A stretch of DNA of 64,000 bases, from positions 248,001 through 312,000 of the forward strand of contig NZ_MDEN01000066.1 of the NCBI RefSeq assembly GCF_001705435.1. Direction: 5' to 3'. The notes beneath the pieces were generated by a model that was given only the letters and a program-made list of their open reading frames with translations, had not been told where the DNA came from and made no database searches. Position 1 is the stretch's first letter; every line of letters begins with the position of its first letter. The DNA is from Pseudomonas graminis (GTDB lineage: Bacteria; Pseudomonadota; Gammaproteobacteria; Pseudomonadales; Pseudomonadaceae). The position numbers and the translations under genes were made by a program. Below, piece by piece: positions 10,943 to 21,052 of this stretch.

Positions 10943-12568
10943 TTAAACCTTGAAGCGCGCAACCATCCCGTTCAAATCCACGGCCAGGCGCGACAGCTCG
11001 TTGCTCGCTGCGCTGGTCTGGTTGGCACCTGTCGCAGATTGAGTCGACAGGTCGCGGATGTTGACCAGGTTGCGGTCCACTTCCCGAGCGACCTGGGCCT
11101 GCTCTTCCGCCGCGCTGGCGATCACCAGGTTGCGTTCATTGATTTCCACAACGGCGCTGTTGATGGTGTCCAGCGCAAGGCCTGCCCCCTTGGCGATGTT
11201 CAGGGTGGACTCGGCGCGTTCAGTGCTGCTGCGCATGGAGTTCACAGCCTGCTCGGTACCGCCCTGGATGCTGCCGATCATGCGCTCGATTTCGCTGGTT
11301 GACTGCTGAGTGCGGTGGGCGAGGGCGCGGACTTCATCGGCCACTACCGCAAACCCGCGACCCGCTTCACCCGCACGGGCCGCTTCAATGGCGGCATTGA
11401 GGGCCAACAGGTTGGTCTGGTCCGCCAGACCGCGGATCACATCCAGCACTTTGCCGATGTCACGGGATTCGTCCGCCAAGTTACCGATCAACGTGGAGGT
11501 GCTCTGCACATCAGTGCTCATGCGTTCGATGGCGGTGACGGTTTCCTGCACCAGATCACGGCCATCGCTGGCGGACTTCGTAGCGTTCTTCGACGCTTCC
11601 GAGGTGCTCACAGCGTTGCGTGCGACTTCTTCCACGGCGCTGGTCATTTGGTTGACCGCAGTGGCGGCCTGTTCGATTTCGTCGTTTTGCTTGGAGAGGC
11701 CGAGCGCGCTTTCGTCGGTGACAGCGTTCAGCTCTTCGGCGGCCGAAGCGAGCTGGGTCGCCGAACCGGAAATACGCTGCAGGGTGTCGCGCAGCTTGGA
11801 CTGCATCTTCAGCATCGCGGCCAGCAAACGGCCTGCTTCGTCGGTTCCGTTCACGTTGATGGTACGCGTCAGATCGCCTTCGGCAATGTCTTCAGCGGCG
11901 TTCAGTGCCGAAGCGATAGGTCGGGTGATGCTGTTGGTCAGCAACCAGGCGAACAACACGGTCAGCACAGTGGCAATGATCAGCAGCGTGACGACCATCG
12001 TGAACGCGGTCGAATACTGTTGAGTGGCCGTCGCACTGGCTTCATTGACCTGTTGGGTATTCATCTCAATCAGCTTGGCGAGCACCACGTTCATCTGGTC
12101 TGAGTTGGTCTGCAGATCGGCGCTGAGCAAACGGGTCAGCTCGATCATGTCGTTGGCCTGACTCAGCGTCTTCATACGGCTTTCGAGCTGGCGGTAGTCG
12201 TTGAGCAACTTGACGTACTGGTCGTAGGCCGACTGCTCTTCGGGCGCGGAAATCATCTTGGCGTAGATTGTCCGGGCGTCGTCGATCTGCTTGTTGCGCA
12301 TGGCAAACAATTCAGTGGTTTTCTGCAGCGTGTCGGGGTCGCGGTTCAGCATTAGGCGATAGGACAGAACACGCAGGCGAATGCTGCCTTCGGTCAATTT
12401 ATCCAGCGCCTTGATGCTCGGCATGCTTTTGGTGGCCATGGCGACGTTGGCGTTGTTGATTTTGTTCATTTGCGACAGAGCGAACACGCCCAGAATCAGC
12501 ATCAGGAGGCCGATGACGGCAAATCCGAGAAAAGCGCGGGGCGCTATATTCAAATTACGTAGGGACAT
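10943..12568 (-). CDS. Methyl-accepting chemotaxis protein
   Basis: 541 residues from the internal ATG ([14 protein letters not shown]); the longer frame upstream lacks a good start. A membrane helix ([20 protein letters not shown]) is followed by a periplasmic helical sensor of about 150 residues resembling the four-helix-bundle MCP type. A second membrane helix ([20 protein letters not shown]), a HAMP domain and the cytoplasmic signalling coiled coil come next. The hairpin tip is conserved ([20 protein letters not shown]). There is no C-terminal NWETF-like receptor-tether pentapeptide. Lying next to gbcB it might sense a betaine-related compound, but nothing in the ligand domain proves it. 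Confidence 0.9.
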
Positions 12569-15367: not shown

Positions 15368-15430
15368 CGGTGGTTTGGAGGACATTTACGCAGCGTGTGC
15401 GCCCTGGGCTTTATGTTCTGACCTCCGACG

Positions 15431-15612
15431 CCTTCCCGGCTAAAGCCGGTCCTACTGTCGAACTCGGTGTATTAGTCGGACCGGCTTCCGCCGGGAAGAG
15501 GCCGGTGAGAACGCCATCAGTTTGCGGCGTGACGCCTGATGCCTTCCCGGCTGAAGCCGGTCCTACTGTCGAACTCAGTGTATTAGTCGGACCGGCTTCA
15601 GCCGGGAAGAGG
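15431..15612. repeat. Tandem doublet of REPINs
   Basis: Two nearly identical copies (15431-15501 and 15542-15612) each carry the arms CCTTCCCGGCTNAAGCCGGT and their inverse. They share the centre CCTACTGTCGAACTC and differ at only a few bases. The pair fills most of the 380-base gap between traX and the aminotransferase gene. The arm family differs from the GAGCTTGCTCGCGA REPINs elsewhere in the window. Confidence 0.88.
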
Positions 15613-15747
15613 CCTGTGTGAGCACCATCAGTTTCTCGGTGTCGCTCTAGACAAACCGCCGTCACCGCCCGTATCTTCCGCCTCAGGCCACCGCAGTGGC
15701 CAGCGTCGCTCGGACGGTTCCGGGCGCTTACGTCTTCAGAGGTTTCC

Positions 15748-16965
15748 ATGGCAGACCAAGGTTCGCCGCGCCGCTTTGCGCGCATCGATCGACTCCCCCC
15801 TTACGTGTTCAACATCACCGCCGAGCTGAAAATGGCTGCGCGTCGTCGTGGTGAGGACATCATCGACCTGAGCATGGGCAACCCCGACGGGGCAACGCCG
15901 CCGCACATCGTCGAGAAACTGGTCACCGTCGCCCAACGTGAAGACACTCACGGCTACTCGACTTCGCGTGGCATCCCGCGTCTGCGTCGGGCGATTTCCA
16001 GCTGGTATAAAAAACGCTACGACGTCGACATCGATCCAGAAGATGAAGCCATCGTCACCATCGGCTCCAAGGAAGGCCTGGCGCACTTGATGCTCGCCAC
16101 GCTGGATCAGGGCGACACCGTCCTGGTGCCGAACCCCAGTTACCCGATTCACATCTACGGCGCCGTGATCGCCGGCGCCCAGGTGCGCTCCGTGCCGCTG
16201 GTGCCGGGCGTGGACTTCTTCGCCGAGCTGGAGAAAGCCATTCGCGGCTCGATCCCCAAACCGAAGATGATGATTCTGGGTTTCCCATCCAATCCGACCG
16301 CTCAATGCGTCGAGCTGGATTTTTTCGAGCGCGTCGTTGCCCTTGCCAAACAGTACGACGTGCTGGTGGTTCACGACCTGGCCTACGCCGACATCGTTTA
16401 TGACGGCTGGAAAGCCCCGTCGATCATGCAGGTCCCAGGCGCCAAGGACATTGCGGTGGAGTTTTTCACCCTGTCCAAGAGCTACAACATGGCCGGCTGG
16501 CGCATCGGCTTCATGGTCGGCAATCCCGAGCTGGTCAATGCACTGGCGCGGATCAAGAGCTACCACGATTACGGCACGTTCACGCCGCTGCAAGTCGCCG
16601 CCATCGCTGCGCTGGAAGGCGATCAACAGTGCGTGCTCAACATCGCCGAGCAGTACCGCCAGCGTCGTAACGTGCTGGTCAAAGGTCTGCACGAACTGGG
16701 CTGGATGGTCGAAAACCCGAAAGCGTCGATGTACGTCTGGGCCAAGATTCCCGAGGCTTATGCGCACCTGGGGTCACTTGAGTTCGCGAAGAAACTGCTG
16801 GCCGTAGCCAAAGTCTGCGTGTCGCCTGGCGTCGGTTTTGGTGAATATGGCGACGACCATGTGCGCTTTGCGCTTATCGAGAATCAGGACCGCATCCGTC
16901 AGGCTGTACGCGGTATTCGCGGGATGTTCAGGGCGGATGGACTGCTGCCTGCGAAGTTGCTCTGA
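15748..16965 (+). CDS. alaC: Alanine/valine-type aminotransferase (AlaC family)
   Basis: 405 residues with AGAGG five bases before the ATG. Class I/II PLP aminotransferase: the cofactor region has [16 protein letters not shown], the Asn/Asp pair is in FPSNPTAQ and HDLAYADI, and the PLP lysine is in [11 protein letters not shown] near residue 245. E. coli AlaC makes alanine from pyruvate and glutamate; the pseudomonad relative is very similar. The terminator follows at 16979. A degenerate second copy of the last ~50 bases of this gene and its terminator lies at 18701-18836, on the far side of the orphan genes. Confidence 0.85.
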
Positions 16966-16978
16966 TTCAATTATCAAA

Positions 16979-17010
16979 CTCTCCCTTGCAGTAGCAGGGG
17001 AGAGCTTAGG
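16979..17010 (+). terminator. Terminator of alaC
   Basis: Seven-base arms CTCTCCC and GGGAGAG (16979-16985 and 16998-17004) are followed by a T-rich run (CTTAGGTTTT), 13 bases after the alaC stop. Confidence 0.7.
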
Positions 17011-17072
17011 TTTTGCAAGCGTTTACAATTCATCGGTGACTCGTCGATCCTGTGAGGGTGGCGAAGTGGCGG

Positions 17073-17495
17073 TCACGATTTGGCCGGATCCTCCACGGTC
17101 TCAACGAGAAGCCTGACGACTGCCGTGTCTGTGCGTTCATCAAAAATAACTGTTTTATTGTAGACTTTATATTTGGTCGTAAAGTCGATGTGAATGTAGT
17201 CCTCGGCCTGAACCTGAAAGTAAAAGCCGTCAGTGATGCGATCAACCTCTGGTTTTTCGGTCGTCTTTTTTTGGCCTCCGGGTGTAGTGGCGTTATAGGC
17301 TACAGCGACTTCCCCTGTTGACGGGATGTAGGTGAAAACTCTGTATAAAACTACTTGTTCTCCGCCTCCGCCACCTTCAGGGTCTATCCATGAGTACCAG
17401 TCGCCAGGATAAACATAAAACAAGCCCTCATTGATCGAGAGGGGGCCCGCTGTTAGCTCTATATACTGTTTTTTATCGTTATTTGTGTCAGTCAT
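17073..17495 (-). CDS. Orphan hypothetical protein (140 aa), island gene 1
   Basis: Not recognised. The start ATG has AAGGA eight bases upstream. The sequence is rich in aromatic and beta-branched residues with a Gly run (PEGGGGGEQV near residue 40). It contains FYVYPGDWYSWIDP and a C-terminal strand-rich half (FYFQVQAEDYIHIDF), so an all-beta fold is likely. No signal peptide, membrane helix or catalytic motif is seen. GC content is lower than in neighbouring core genes. A CTGTCA-N4-TGACAG palindrome lies 168 bases upstream (17663-17678). The PGD(W/Y)Y motif recurs in island gene 2 (PGDYYAEN). Confidence 0.55.
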   Translation of the reverse strand: MTDTNNDKKQYIELTAGPLSINEGLFYVYPGDWYSWIDPEGGGGGEQVVLYRVFTYIPSTGEVAVAYNATTPGGQKKTTEKPEVDRITDGFYFQVQAEDYIHIDFTTKYKVYNKTVIFDERTDTAVVRLLVETVEDPAKS

Positions 17496-17835
17496 GTCGT
17501 CAGTCCTTTTGAGCTTGGATGAATATCAAATTCACATGCGTTAATAAGTCTGGCGCTTTGTTCAGACTTAACTTAGTGGATCAAGCAGTAATTTTCAGCT
17601 TTGAAGCGGGTCATCCCAAATCGATGCACTTCCAACGTAGGCCGATGCGCCAAGCACGTCTACTGTCAGAAATGACAGGTGATGCCGCCGCTGGTAGCGC
17701 CGCTGGGCGCAACGAGAGTGAATTTGCGGTGCCCCAGAAGTGTTGCCGAGCGTTGCCAAAAAGGTCTGATTGCGACATTTGGTGCACATGTTCCGGGATG
17801 CGGATGGATTACGCCTAAAAACGGCATGTCGTCAC
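17496..17835. other. Non-coding gap between island genes 1 and 2
   Basis: 340 bases. The palindrome at 17663-17678 is the only clear element. Frames crossing this stretch lack ribosome sites and have shadow-like composition. Confidence 0.45.
17663..17678. promoter_or_regulatory. Palindromic operator, copy 1
   Basis: CTGTCAGAAATGACAG is a perfect 6-4-6 palindrome upstream of island gene 1. The flanks CGTCTA on the left and GT on the right are shared with copy 3 (19445-19460). Confidence 0.6.
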
Positions 17836-18573
17836 TCATTTGCCGAGCTCATGACGGGACCTCGGCACATCCGGCAGCGGCATATGTTTGAGGATCGGTG
17901 ATGAGGGTGATTCGGGATGTGTGGTGATGCCATAGATGACCGACAGTTTATTGGAACTGTTCTCTGCATAGTAATCACCGGGCGCGGCACATCGGATTGC
18001 TTCAGCTTCCGTAACAGTTTTTGAGTAGCTGCGCCCTTCAACAGTACGGATGTTGACCGAGACTTGGCGGTCTTCGGACACTCTGAAAGTTCTGTCCATC
18101 ACAATGTCTTCTTCAGAGGGACTTACGTAAAAAGTCGAGCCTTTTGGAAGATACAGCGCAAGGTCGGATTCGACGGACTGCGGTGCCGCGATGGGCGGTA
18201 GTTCCCATAAGTAGATATCGGCGACCACTTCTGCGTCCGGATAGGAAATGATCTTGAGAATGACCGAATAGTACCCGCCGTCCTGATGAACGATGTCTTG
18301 CGGGGTCGCATAAAGCCTGGCATCGCCCACTGCGACTGTGGCCGAAAGAACTTCGTGCGAATCCTCGACGTAGACGGCAATCAGCGCCTCAGCTGAGTTC
18401 AGTTCGCGAATAATCCTCAGCTTGACCGAGCCTTCTATATCCACCGTATGAAACACGCCTTGAGTCAGAAAGAGCAACGGCTCAGTAGCAGGCCCCTGCC
18501 GACTGACGTGTTTCCCCCTCAGGCTTTTCCACAACTGGGGAGTTAGCGTATGCGACCTTGCGATTGTGCCCAT
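17836..18573 (-). CDS. Orphan hypothetical protein (245 aa), island gene 2
   Basis: Not recognised. The frame is open to 18672, but the ribosome site AAGGGA six bases before the ATG at 18573 fixes the start (MGTIARSHTLTPQLWKSLRG). It also keeps the palindrome at 18644-18659 outside the gene, 71 bases upstream. The protein is beta-rich with many short Val/Ile strands (VKLRIIRELNSAEALIAVYV). It includes FYVSPSEEDIVMD and APGDYYAENSSNK, the latter resembling PGDWYSW of island gene 1. No signal peptide or membrane helix. GC is lower than in core genes. Confidence 0.55.
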   Translation of the reverse strand: MGTIARSHTLTPQLWKSLRGKHVSRQGPATEPLLFLTQGVFHTVDIEGSVKLRIIRELNSAEALIAVYVEDSHEVLSATVAVGDARLYATPQDIVHQDGGYYSVILKIISYPDAEVVADIYLWELPPIAAPQSVESDLALYLPKGSTFYVSPSEEDIVMDRTFRVSEDRQVSVNIRTVEGRSYSKTVTEAEAIRCAAPGDYYAENSSNKLSVIYGITTHPESPSSPILKHMPLPDVPRSRHELGK

Positions 18574-18643
18574 GATCATTCCCTTGATTGAGTAGCTGGC
18601 ATTCCGTTTACCCAAAAGTAAGCCCGTCATCGCTATTTGAATA

Positions 18644-18659
18644 CTGTCAGTTTTGACAG
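18644..18659. promoter_or_regulatory. Palindromic operator, copy 2
   Basis: CTGTCAGTTTTGACAG has the same 6-4-6 arms as copies 1 and 3 with a different centre. It lies 71 bases upstream of the island gene 2 start. On the gene's strand it is followed by TATTCAAAT, which could be part of a promoter. Confidence 0.6.
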
Positions 18660-18700
18660 TCCCCGTGCCCATTGGGCTGAGGTGTTTTAGAGCGCTGATG

Positions 18701-18836
18701 ATTCGCAGGATGTTCCGGGCGGATGGGTTGTTGTCTGTAAAACCGGCCTGATTAGCTGAAAAACTCTCCCCCGACAGTAAGCGAGAGAGTTCGCAAGATG
18801 CAAAATTCTACGATGAGCTCGTCTGCGAGGACCGTC
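18701..18836 (+). pseudogene. Remnant of a second alaC 3' end with its terminator
   Basis: Bases 18701 onward align with 16915 onward, the end of alaC: ATTCGC-GGATGTTC-GGGCGGATGG is shared with few changes. The remnant reads [16 protein letters not shown] then stop, against [16 protein letters not shown] in alaC. The match continues through the ACTCTCCC hairpin (18763-18790) and fades near 18836. It is separated from alaC by island genes 1 and 2. This is a displaced, diverged duplicate of the gene tail and not a functional gene. Confidence 0.75.
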
Positions 18837-18978
18837 ACTTAATGCTAATAATTTCATTGCTTTAGTTAAGGAGTGGTAATTGTAATCGCAGTGGGCTTGT
18901 TCGCAGAAGGTTGCCCAATTTTAACTATGTTTCTTATTGCCTAGTGAGCCAGGAGGGCGGCTCGGCTCACGCAGCCTT

Positions 18979-19215
18979 TTACGGATGAGCAATAACTTGA
19001 GGAGATGAAGTCAAGTACACGAAGTACTGTGTTGTGATGGAGCTATCACCTTCTATATGCGCCAACCCTTTTCGTATTACCGTGTACACGTCGGGGCTCA
19101 CAAAGGAAACTGTCAGGAGATCACCTTGGCTGAGCGCCGCAAAGGTCCAGTCTTGCAAAGGTGCTTCGCCTTTATACACATCATTTACATAAATTTTCGC
19201 AGGGATATTAGCCAT
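18979..19215 (-). CDS. Orphan hypothetical protein (78 aa), island gene 3
   Basis: Not recognised. The start (MANIPAKIYVNDVYKGEAPL) has AAGGA eight bases upstream, a good site. A short beta-rich protein: LSQGDLLTVSFVSPDVYTVI, then a C-terminal strand TTQYFVYLTSSPQV. No signal peptide or membrane helix. The palindrome copy at 19445-19460 lies 230 bases upstream on the same side as for the other two genes. I link it to island genes 1 and 2 by strand, size, composition and shared palindrome. Confidence 0.5.
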   Translation of the reverse strand: MANIPAKIYVNDVYKGEAPLQDWTFAALSQGDLLTVSFVSPDVYTVIRKGLAHIEGDSSITTQYFVYLTSSPQVIAHP

Positions 19216-19798
19216 GGTGGTTATCCTTCTTACAGTGTGGTGATGCCCAGATACAGGTATGCGTCAGGGGATAGTTTTCGAAAGCATTTTGGCGCAGAGT
19301 GCTGTTGTTGATTGGGGCACGGCTAATATGAGCCCGCCGTGCTTTATCAAGTTTGCTTCATAGCTATCGTGAAGCTTTGCCGCGATTCAACGACTTACGC
19401 CTGAGCTGCAATTTGACTTTAGGCCTGCGGGTAAGGCGCGTCTACTGTCAGAAATGACAGGTATTGTGGCCGTTCGTCGGATGTCGAGTGGGCTTGAAGT
19501 TGAAAATTTGAACACCCGGTCGCGCAACCGCTTCTAGTCAACAACCGCTTCTAACTGTGAAATCGTTCGACCAAGACTTCCCGGCTCAGCCGGGGCTTTC
19601 ACGTGCACTGCGCATCCTCGCAGGAGCATTACCTATCCTGCGCAACCAATGCTCCTGCCTAACCCATGTCGTAAACGCGCCTTTGTGTGGCGTGCGTAGG
19701 CATCTGGGCTGTCAGCGTCAGCCATACCATCGTGGCCAAAGGGCAGTTCAAGGCCCTGTCGATCATTCAGGCGCCGCGCCGCCGCTGGGAGAACCGCG
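19216..19798. other. Intergenic region upstream of glyA
   Basis: 583 bases. It holds the third palindrome (19445-19460) and, near 19577-19595, a single REP-like arm (TTCCCGGCTCAGCCGGGGCT). The part next to glyA (about 19680-19798) must carry the promoter of the glyA-sox operon; I cannot name a site. No gene is supported. Confidence 0.5.
19445..19460. promoter_or_regulatory. Palindromic operator, copy 3
   Basis: CTGTCAGAAATGACAG, identical to copy 1, with the same CGTCTA on the left. It lies upstream of island gene 3. Confidence 0.6.
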
Positions 19799-21052
19799 AT
19801 GTTCAGCAAGCAAGACCAGATTCAGGGTTATGACGATGCACTGTTGGCCGCGATCAGTGCCGAGGAGCAGCGTCAGGAAGACCACATCGAGCTGATCGCC
19901 TCGGAGAACTACACCAGCAAGCGCGTGATGCAGGCTCAGGGCAGCGGCCTGACCAACAAATACGCCGAGGGTTATCCCGGCAAACGTTATTACGGCGGCT
20001 GCGAGCACGTCGATAAGGTCGAGCAACTGGCGATCGATCGCGCCAAGCTCCTTTTCGGCGCCGATTACGCCAACGTCCAGCCGCATTCCGGTTCGTCGGC
20101 CAACAGCGCGGTTTACCTGGCGCTGCTGCAAGCGGGTGACACCTTGCTGGGCATGAGTCTGGCCCATGGCGGTCACCTGACCCACGGCGCCAAAGTGTCG
20201 TCCTCGGGCAAGCTGTACAACGCCGTTCAATACGGCATCGACGTTGCCACTGGCCTGATCGATTACGACGAAGTCGAGCGACTGGCCGTCGAGCACAAAC
20301 CGAAGATGATCGTTGCCGGTTTCTCGGCCTACTCCAAAACCCTGGATTTCCCGCGCTTCCGCCAGATCGCCGACAAAGTGGGCGCGCTGCTGTTCGTCGA
20401 CATGGCCCACGTCGCCGGTCTGGTCGCTGCCGGTTTGTACCCGAACCCGCTGCCGTACGCCGATGTGGTCACCACCACCACCCACAAAACCCTGCGCGGT
20501 CCACGTGGCGGTTTGATCCTGGCCAAAGCCAACGAAGAGATTGAGAAAAAGCTCAACTCCGCTGTGTTTCCGGGTGCCCAGGGTGGCCCATTGATGCACG
20601 TGATTGCCGGCAAGGCCATCTGCTTCAAAGAAGCCATGGAGCCCGGTTTCAAAGCCTATCAACAGCAAGTGATCGACAACGCCCAGGCCATGGCGCAGGT
20701 GTTCATTGATCGCGGTTACGACGTTGTTTCGGGCGGGACCGATAACCACCTGTTCCTCGTCAGCCTGATCCGTCAGGGCCTGACCGGGAAGGACGCTGAC
20801 GCAGCATTGGGTCGCTCGCACATCACCGTCAACAAGAACGCCGTGCCGAACGATCCGCAATCGCCGTTCGTGACGTCGGGCCTGCGCATCGGCACTCCCG
20901 CCGTGACCACGCGCGGTTTCAAAGTTACTCAGTGCATCACGCTGGCCGGCTGGATCTGCGACATCCTCGACAACCTCGGCGACGCCGATGTCGAGGCCAA
21001 CGTTGCCGAGCAGGTCTCCGCGCTGTGCGCCGATTTCCCGGTTTACCGCTGA
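19799..21052 (+). CDS. glyA: Serine hydroxymethyltransferase (sox-cluster copy)
   Basis: 417 residues, normal length, with GGGAG before the ATG. Family marks: [11 protein letters not shown] near residue 30, [15 protein letters not shown], and the PLP lysine in [14 protein letters not shown] near residue 230. It interconverts glycine and serine with tetrahydrofolate one-carbon units. As first gene before soxB it takes the glycine and 5,10-methylene-THF made by sarcosine oxidase. Pseudomonads carry more than one glyA; this is the copy tied to betaine/sarcosine catabolism. Confidence 0.93.

Follow-up and report, generated by a model that had tools for sequence, protein, structure and literature searches.

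A palindromic box in a stereotyped promoter of accessory-looking Pseudomonas genes and LuxR solos as its candidate activators

The closest described counterparts of the element reported here are the lux and las boxes; the half-site of the las box is CTGCCA, and lux-type boxes are centred near -42.5. The element itself is the palindrome CTGTCA-N4-TGACAG (hereafter, the box), found upstream of three orphan genes in a stretch of 64,000 nucleotides of the Pseudomonas graminis genome (GCF_001705435.1, contig NZ_MDEN01000066.1, positions 248,001 to 312,000); this whole stretch is called the window below. Like the boxes of V. fischeri lux and P. aeruginosa lasB, it is a dyad of 16-20 bp that is predicted to lie near -42 and to overlap or abut the -35 element, fits the half-site CTG(C/T)CA, and would act by class-II activation. 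Unlike them, it has the half-site CTGTCA rather than CTGCCA or CTGTAG, being one letter away from that of the las box, and in each box-rich genome it is found at 3-35 sites, ahead of genes that look accessory.

Two types of LuxR solos are relevant here, and what is said of them from the literature applies to the available excerpts of the papers cited. Subgroup A, defined by ferredoxin-NADP reductase and rRNA-methyltransferase neighbours, is very widespread in fluorescent Pseudomonas, and for its member Ppu16R of P. putida 16A these excerpts report that no regulated promoter was found; for subgroup F the defining neighbours are an ankyrin gene and genes of the methionine pathway (PMC8546723). 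PpoR is encoded between fprB and rlmG; the neighbour given for PsaR1 is an enolase-phosphatase gene (PMC10134790). Of the three solos of one study, two keep the nine conserved residues; psaR1 is not auto-regulated and is required for survival in the plant, the identification of its targets being deferred to later studies (PMC3909224). Mutation of a PpoR relative changed 84 genes, and the wording 'lux box' or 'binding site' does not occur in the excerpts of that paper (PMC11543582). No paper naming the box CTGTCA-N4-TGACAG was found in literature searches, which covered few subscription papers.

The window contains exactly three exact copies of the box, compared to 0.003 expected from its base composition (Poisson P(≥3) = 5e-9); the next-best match, at 11709, has two mismatches. 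All three are located upstream of minus-strand genes, at 168 (gene 1), 71 (gene 2) and 230 (gene 3) bases from the start codon. Copies 1 and 3 have common flanks, CGTCTA before and GGT after the palindrome on the plus strand. The initial annotation of this DNA was thus reproduced as to the three positions, the distances (71 to 230 bases), the identity of copies 1 and 3 with shared flanks, and the lack of a further exact copy in the window. In the direction of the genes, the common flank reads TAGACG, one variant of the frequent -35-like element described below; therefore, a recent duplication is not required to explain it. The boxes and genes are as follows.

17663..17678, minus strand: box copy 1, reading CTGTCATTTCTGACAG toward gene 1
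17073..17495, minus strand: orphan gene 1, 140 aa
18644..18659, minus strand: box copy 2, reading CTGTCAAAACTGACAG toward gene 2
17836..18573, minus strand: orphan gene 2, 245 aa, with an MGTIARS start
19445..19460, minus strand: box copy 3, identical to copy 1
18979..19215, minus strand: orphan gene 3, 78 aa

The genome of the window (5.96 Mb) carries 11 boxes against 0.28 expected from base composition, and the reversed pattern used as a control has no copies in it. In 119 Pseudomonas genomes 854 boxes were counted, 0 to 35 in each: at least one box was present in 83 genomes, at least three in 65, and none in 36, while the reversed pattern gave 14 forward hits in all. An extended form of the box was also searched for in 84,980 species, each represented by one genome. 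This yielded at least 119 stretches, 80 of 119 being listed, so that the non-Pseudomonas share refers to a sample only; 117 of these 119 stretches came from Pseudomonas (P. fluorescens, P. koreensis, P. mandelii, P. gingeri, P. syringae, P. viridiflava, P. corrugata, P. chlororaphis, and others) and two from metagenome bins of other genera, which may be chance matches. The 'small regulon' of the initial annotation is incorrect: this genome has 11 sites, and related genomes have as many as 35.

The box is embedded in a recurrent promoter-like arrangement, described here with positions counted downstream from the palindrome. When 54 sites were oriented to the nearest downstream gene, the most informative columns apart from the half-sites were T and C in the centre, +1 to +5, +25, and +29, with T-A/T-G-N-C at +1 to +5, A at +25 and T at +29. 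This pattern reads as a -35-like TAGNC directly after the palindrome, followed by a -10-like hexamer at +24 to +29. Loci from the 84,980-species scan test only the downstream part of it, as the scan pattern fixed letters up to +5. They were divided into a listed set of 81 dissimilar segments, from which two overlaps (L145, L156) and one non-Pseudomonas locus had been removed, and an unlisted set of 37 dissimilar segments unlike any earlier site, one non-Pseudomonas record included (here and below, L and G numbers denote loci and genomes). T at +29 was present in 61/81 listed and 31/37 unlisted segments, and A at +28 in 50/81 and 21/37; the mean frequency of T over columns +7 to +65 was 23% in both sets, and +29 ranked first in both. 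A at +25 was found in just 30 of the 81 listed segments and hence is not general. All three copies in the window have a T-A-N-N-N-T hexamer at +24 to +29 (TACGTT, TACTTT, and TAAAGT), and two of the three have TAGAC after the palindrome, copy 2 having TATTC. The predicted promoter elements are as follows.

17657..17662, minus strand: -35-like TAGACG of copy 1, directly after the box, fitting TAGNC
17634..17639, minus strand: -10-like TACGTT of copy 1, at +24 to +29, predicted transcript start near 17627
18638..18643, minus strand: -35-like position of copy 2, TATTCA, fitting TAGNC only partially
18615..18620, minus strand: -10-like TACTTT of copy 2, predicted transcript start near 18608, with the start codon 35 bases further on
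19439..19444, minus strand: -35-like TAGACG of copy 3, directly after the box
19416..19421, minus strand: -10-like TAAAGT of copy 3, predicted transcript start near 19409, leader of about 194 bases

A transcript start at about +36, as predicted from these elements, would place the palindrome centre near -43.5, a typical position for an activator. A plain sigma-70 consensus scan of 16900-19900 found no promoters, compared to 2.5 in shuffled sequences. Weak core elements combined with an upstream dyad near -43.5 argue for an activator. We consider the existence of the box and of its promoter family close to certain, and activation through this promoter likely.

The boxes are associated with gene starts throughout the sites analyzed. 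Among 86 listed sites (three palindromes being counted on both strands) a downstream gene was present for 83, its start lying within 130 bases of the box in 58 of the 83; the next gene was on the box strand in 72/84 cases. In the unlisted set the corresponding values were 26/36 and 33/37. A check for the random spread with no link to gene starts that the initial annotation had named as contrary evidence did not refute its proposal.

The three genes behind the boxes of the window have no Pfam or NCBIfam match above cut-off, and an Rfam scan of 16900-19900 gave no match. Relatives were searched for genes 1 and 2 in 298 Pseudomonas genomes and found in three and six of them, respectively, own genome counted, in agreement with the earlier designation of these two genes as orphans. 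Single-sequence fold predictions for genes 1 and 2 were uninformative (mean pLDDT 45.6 and 34.1). The relatives of gene 2 also begin with MGTIARS. Upstream of seven diverged relatives of the two genes there were four exact boxes and two with one mismatch, i.e., six of the seven were preceded by an exact or one-mismatch box. In G152 the relative of gene 1 (30% identity) follows CTGTCATAAATGACAG, and that of gene 2 (57% identity) follows CTGTCAGTTTTGACAG; in G020, CTGTCATTTGTGACAG precedes the gene 1 relative (41% identity) and the one-mismatch box CTGTCAACAATGACAA the gene 2 relative (92% identity). Relatives of gene 2 are preceded by CTGTCAATGTTGACAG in G182 (89% identity) and by the one-mismatch box CTGCCAGTTCTGACAG in G066 (59% identity), and no box was found ahead of the relative in G285 (26% identity). 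The proposal of a shared operator is supported by the over-representation of the motif, its location before gene starts, its retention before most of the diverged relatives, and its constant distance to the -10-like element.

The genes behind the boxes are heterogeneous. A set of 140 box-adjacent proteins, which includes the three from the window and in which some near-duplicates and wrong-side neighbours remain, falls into 15 clusters and 55 singletons, the three largest clusters comprising 34, 12, and 8 proteins. A domain was detected in one protein scanned from each of these: Ig-like Big_2 in the 34-member cluster (L170), SET, marginally above the cut-off, in the 12-member cluster (L146), and TcA-type VRP1 in the 8-member cluster (L180). 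Further box genes encode proteins with SpvB, RHS repeats or ricin-B-like lectin domains. Scanning 77 proteins together yielded VRP1 in three, thioredoxin in two, a beta-propeller domain in two, and M60 peptidase, GH3, amidase and others with one match each; at least 38 of the 77 had no family match at E 0.001. In the genome of the window the other eight sites are ahead of small unnamed proteins, a start-predicted lipoprotein, an amidase-like protein, larger unnamed proteins, and a histidine-kinase-like or small protein; at one of its loci (L004) the likely target start is about 350 bases from the box. The genes behind the boxes look accessory (orphans, Ig-like, lectin-like, and Tc-type).

Components of Tc type were observed directly behind the box in several Pseudomonas species (L018, L030, L043, L044, L169, L179, L180, L186, L201, L211), the assignment being based on checked domains for some loci and on sequence likeness for others. 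The protein of about 174 aa that makes up the 12-member cluster (L146, L155, L160, L174, L185, and others) is among the most recurrent box genes. The label halovibrin for one group of box genes was dropped, the members scanned having no Pfam (L205) or NCBIfam (L003, L205) match.

Our analysis of LuxR-type genes revealed a single PF03472 match in the genome of the window, a LuxR solo of 238 aa encoded outside the window (G000:C60:185400-186116). This protein (L012:1330-2046) consists of an autoinducer-binding domain (PF03472, 27.8 bits) and a GerE helix-turn-helix (HTH) domain (PF00196, 56.5 bits), both over the cut-off; among proteins of solved structure, those closest to it in sequence are CviR, SdiA, RhlR, LasR, and QscR. 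The gene has a methionine-salvage (mtn) gene on one side and an ankyrin gene on the other, a layout that matches subgroup F; by sequence reading, we take these neighbours to be mtnC and, further on, the ankyrin gene. Full-length mtnC-linked LuxR orthologues were found in 12 of the 119 Pseudomonas genomes. The gene place is thus the same as that of subgroup F/PsaR1, with the full-length protein in the genome of the window, and the distribution differs, since subgroup F is reported in the available excerpts as limited to P. viridiflava (PMC8546723). In 19 further genomes the mtnC-linked LuxR matched only by its HTH; 17 such loci (L102-L115, L117-L119) carry genes of 77-124 aa, one of them interrupted by a stop codon, a pattern suggestive of sensor-domain loss. 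In seven of nine listed loci the same gene, presumably acireductone-dioxygenase-like, stands beside the HTH-only LuxR. The far neighbour is an ankyrin gene in two loci, and elsewhere another gene or out of view. All 19 HTH-only genomes also belong to the PpoR-type group.

The second LuxR solo, of PpoR type, was found in other box-rich genomes. Both subgroup A neighbours, which we take to be ferredoxin-NADP-reductase-like and rRNA-methyltransferase-like genes, are present at 17 of 20 loci (L120-L139). The subgroup is that of PMC8546723. L124 and L128 have just one of these neighbours called in full, and L134 (G006) has neither, containing a different LuxR. Subgroup A/PpoR and these proteins thus agree in gene place, where it was read, and in the same two domains, autoinducer-binding and GerE HTH, that the PsaR1 type also has. 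In LuxR proteins the lactone pocket is marked by the spaced residues W-Y-D-P-W; the mtnC-linked protein retains these, as do eight of eight PpoR-type proteins tested. The PpoR-type match is in two pieces at G088:C21:117468-118161, in a genome with 5 boxes, and contains one in-frame stop at G074:C8:115839-116546 and G090:C18:123854-124555, in genomes with 30 and 9 boxes, respectively.

The two LuxR genes and the boxes are distributed similarly over the 119 genomes. The comparison covered LuxR-type genes only, with the PpoR type delimited at 230 bits against an alignment of eight such proteins and unfetched genomes classed by score alone. Of the 66 genomes that carry a PpoR-type match (at least 230 bits) or a full-length mtnC-linked LuxR, 62 had at least three boxes, against 3 of the 53 that carry neither (Fisher p 6e-25, phylogeny not corrected for). 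Taken separately, 53 of 54 PpoR-type genomes and 9 of 12 with the full-length mtnC-linked LuxR had at least three boxes; the two genes, so delimited, occurred together in 0/119 genomes. In the 22 genomes lacking a PF03472 match the number of boxes did not exceed two. The box centre was compared for boxes with a fitting flank in 5/9 full-mtnC-type, 8/12 PpoR-only, and 9/11 both-gene genomes. Among the sites listed, the centre GATC was found in 0/25 in full-mtnC-type against 21/72 in PpoR-only genomes, and TTTC/GAAA in 12/25 against 4/72, respectively, the both-gene genomes of this comparison having TTTC/GAAA in 0/33. This difference is compatible with distinct proteins recognizing identical half-sites, but it could also arise from clade effects.

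These observations point to the box as a site bound by a LuxR solo, of the mtnC-linked or PpoR type, in a class-II-type activator promoter, which we consider probable on the sequence evidence. A dimeric activator would bind CTGTCA-N4-TGACAG in the stereotyped promoter, contact RNA polymerase from a position near -43.5, and turn on the gene that follows. In the genome of the window this activator would be the mtnC-linked LuxR solo (PsaR1/subgroup F type), and in most other box-rich Pseudomonas the PpoR/subgroup A type, in some of them alongside a short HTH-only gene matching the mtnC-linked LuxR. Since many unrelated accessory-looking genes carry the box promoter, one receptor would control a genome-wide, changing set of them. 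What was observed is the box family with its statistics, the arrangement of the promoter, the retention of boxes together with their genes, and the co-distribution; we infer activation, the identity of the activator, and its response to acyl-homoserine lactones. The 'unknown function' of the initial annotation can be replaced by a more specific role, that of an activator-dependent promoter which probably belongs to a LuxR solo. A further, tentative suggestion, which may well fail, is that of a 'plug-in' regulon throughout Pseudomonas, in which newly acquired orphan, lectin-like, Ig-like, and Tc-type genes repeatedly join the LuxR-solo promoter, so that a fast-changing accessory arsenal would be under a receptor for foreign or self signals. 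The two solos would alternate as its master across species, the sensor domain being absent at one of the two loci in genomes with the other LuxR, and the box centre differing between regulator classes among the sites listed.

Several facts weigh against assigning the box to LuxR solos, and some of them equally favour another, co-varying dimeric activator of the same clades, to which the LuxR solos would be bystanders. Genes and boxes both track clades, which the association statistic ignores, and the 230-bit limit was picked after the counts were seen. The proposal requires that one box be read by two distinct LuxR solos, depending on the species. Exceptions useful to the rival are G007, with a 240-bit PpoR-type match and no box, and G026, G066, and G094, with the full mtnC-linked LuxR and 1, 1, and 0 boxes. 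Also unfavourable to the LuxR solos are G051 (9% contaminated) and G057, with 6 and 3 boxes and weaker PpoR-like matches only, and G088, where 5 boxes accompany a split PpoR-type match; G051 and G088 are among the three genomes that have at least three boxes and neither LuxR gene. Genomes with only weaker PpoR-like matches (below 230 bits) are mostly without boxes, and in 28 genomes with such matches the las-like variant CTGCCA-N4-TGRCAG was not clearly enriched. The link between centre and regulator is not strict, as both-gene genomes fall into different centre types: G037 and G079, outside the comparison above, have TTTC/GAAA in 10/17 and 7/14 sites listed. Finally, only two matches with at most two mismatches were found in 157 kb around luxR genes, with no sign of autoregulation, which agrees with what the excerpts of PMC3909224 say of psaR1. 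The bystander explanation is nevertheless rather unlikely, in view of the likeness to lux and las boxes, the predicted lux-like position (-43.5, the lux box being at -42.5), and the joint coverage of nearly all box-rich genomes by the two LuxR genes in the comparison of LuxR-type genes.

Other explanations are of lower probability. A repressor bound to the palindrome could block the promoter, as the position of the palindrome against the -35 region would permit; however, the palindrome lies upstream of the -35/-10 region and not over it, at a constant distance, and the -35-like and -10-like elements are weak, with no consensus promoter found, making this very improbable. Boxes of the SOS regulator LexA have TA-rich inner letters at SOS genes. 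They share the frame CTGT-N8-ACAG with the box, and its outer letters fit the LexA consensus, while inner letters and distribution differ: the inner letters are CA..TG at 11 of the 50 CTGT-N8-ACAG sites of the genome and TA-rich, like those of LexA boxes, in a separate group, and 36 of the 119 Pseudomonas genomes have no box, though LexA is described as general in the genus. We give LexA practically no weight. Hardly more credible is a mobile repeat, or palindromes copied along with the orphan genes: copies 1 and 3 are indeed identical and have short flanks in common, but the shared flank is the -35-like TAGACG present at unrelated genes and in unrelated species, and box genes form numerous groups with no relation to one another, with 55 singletons among 140. 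The Pho box, a direct repeat of CTGTCAT, was rejected, the half-sites of the box being inverted.

Having the box defined and as many as 35 promoters listed for a genome would render the question of LuxR-solo targets directly testable, and shared control through the box would permit function prediction for many orphan genes. If the proposed assignment is true, LuxR solos without known targets (PpoR and PsaR1 types) would gain candidate target genes, and Tc-type and lectin-like genes may be expressed on a cell-cell or host signal.

The interval 16965-19799 of the window, bounded by what we take to be an aminotransferase gene and glyA, varies in its orphan set among relatives (L262-L268), with three orphan genes here, two in G020 and G152, and one in G066; it is possibly a small hot spot for lineage-specific genes. 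Next to the aminotransferase gene, at 15430-15634, there is a tandem repeat with a period of 111 bp, 1.8 copies, and 92% matches.

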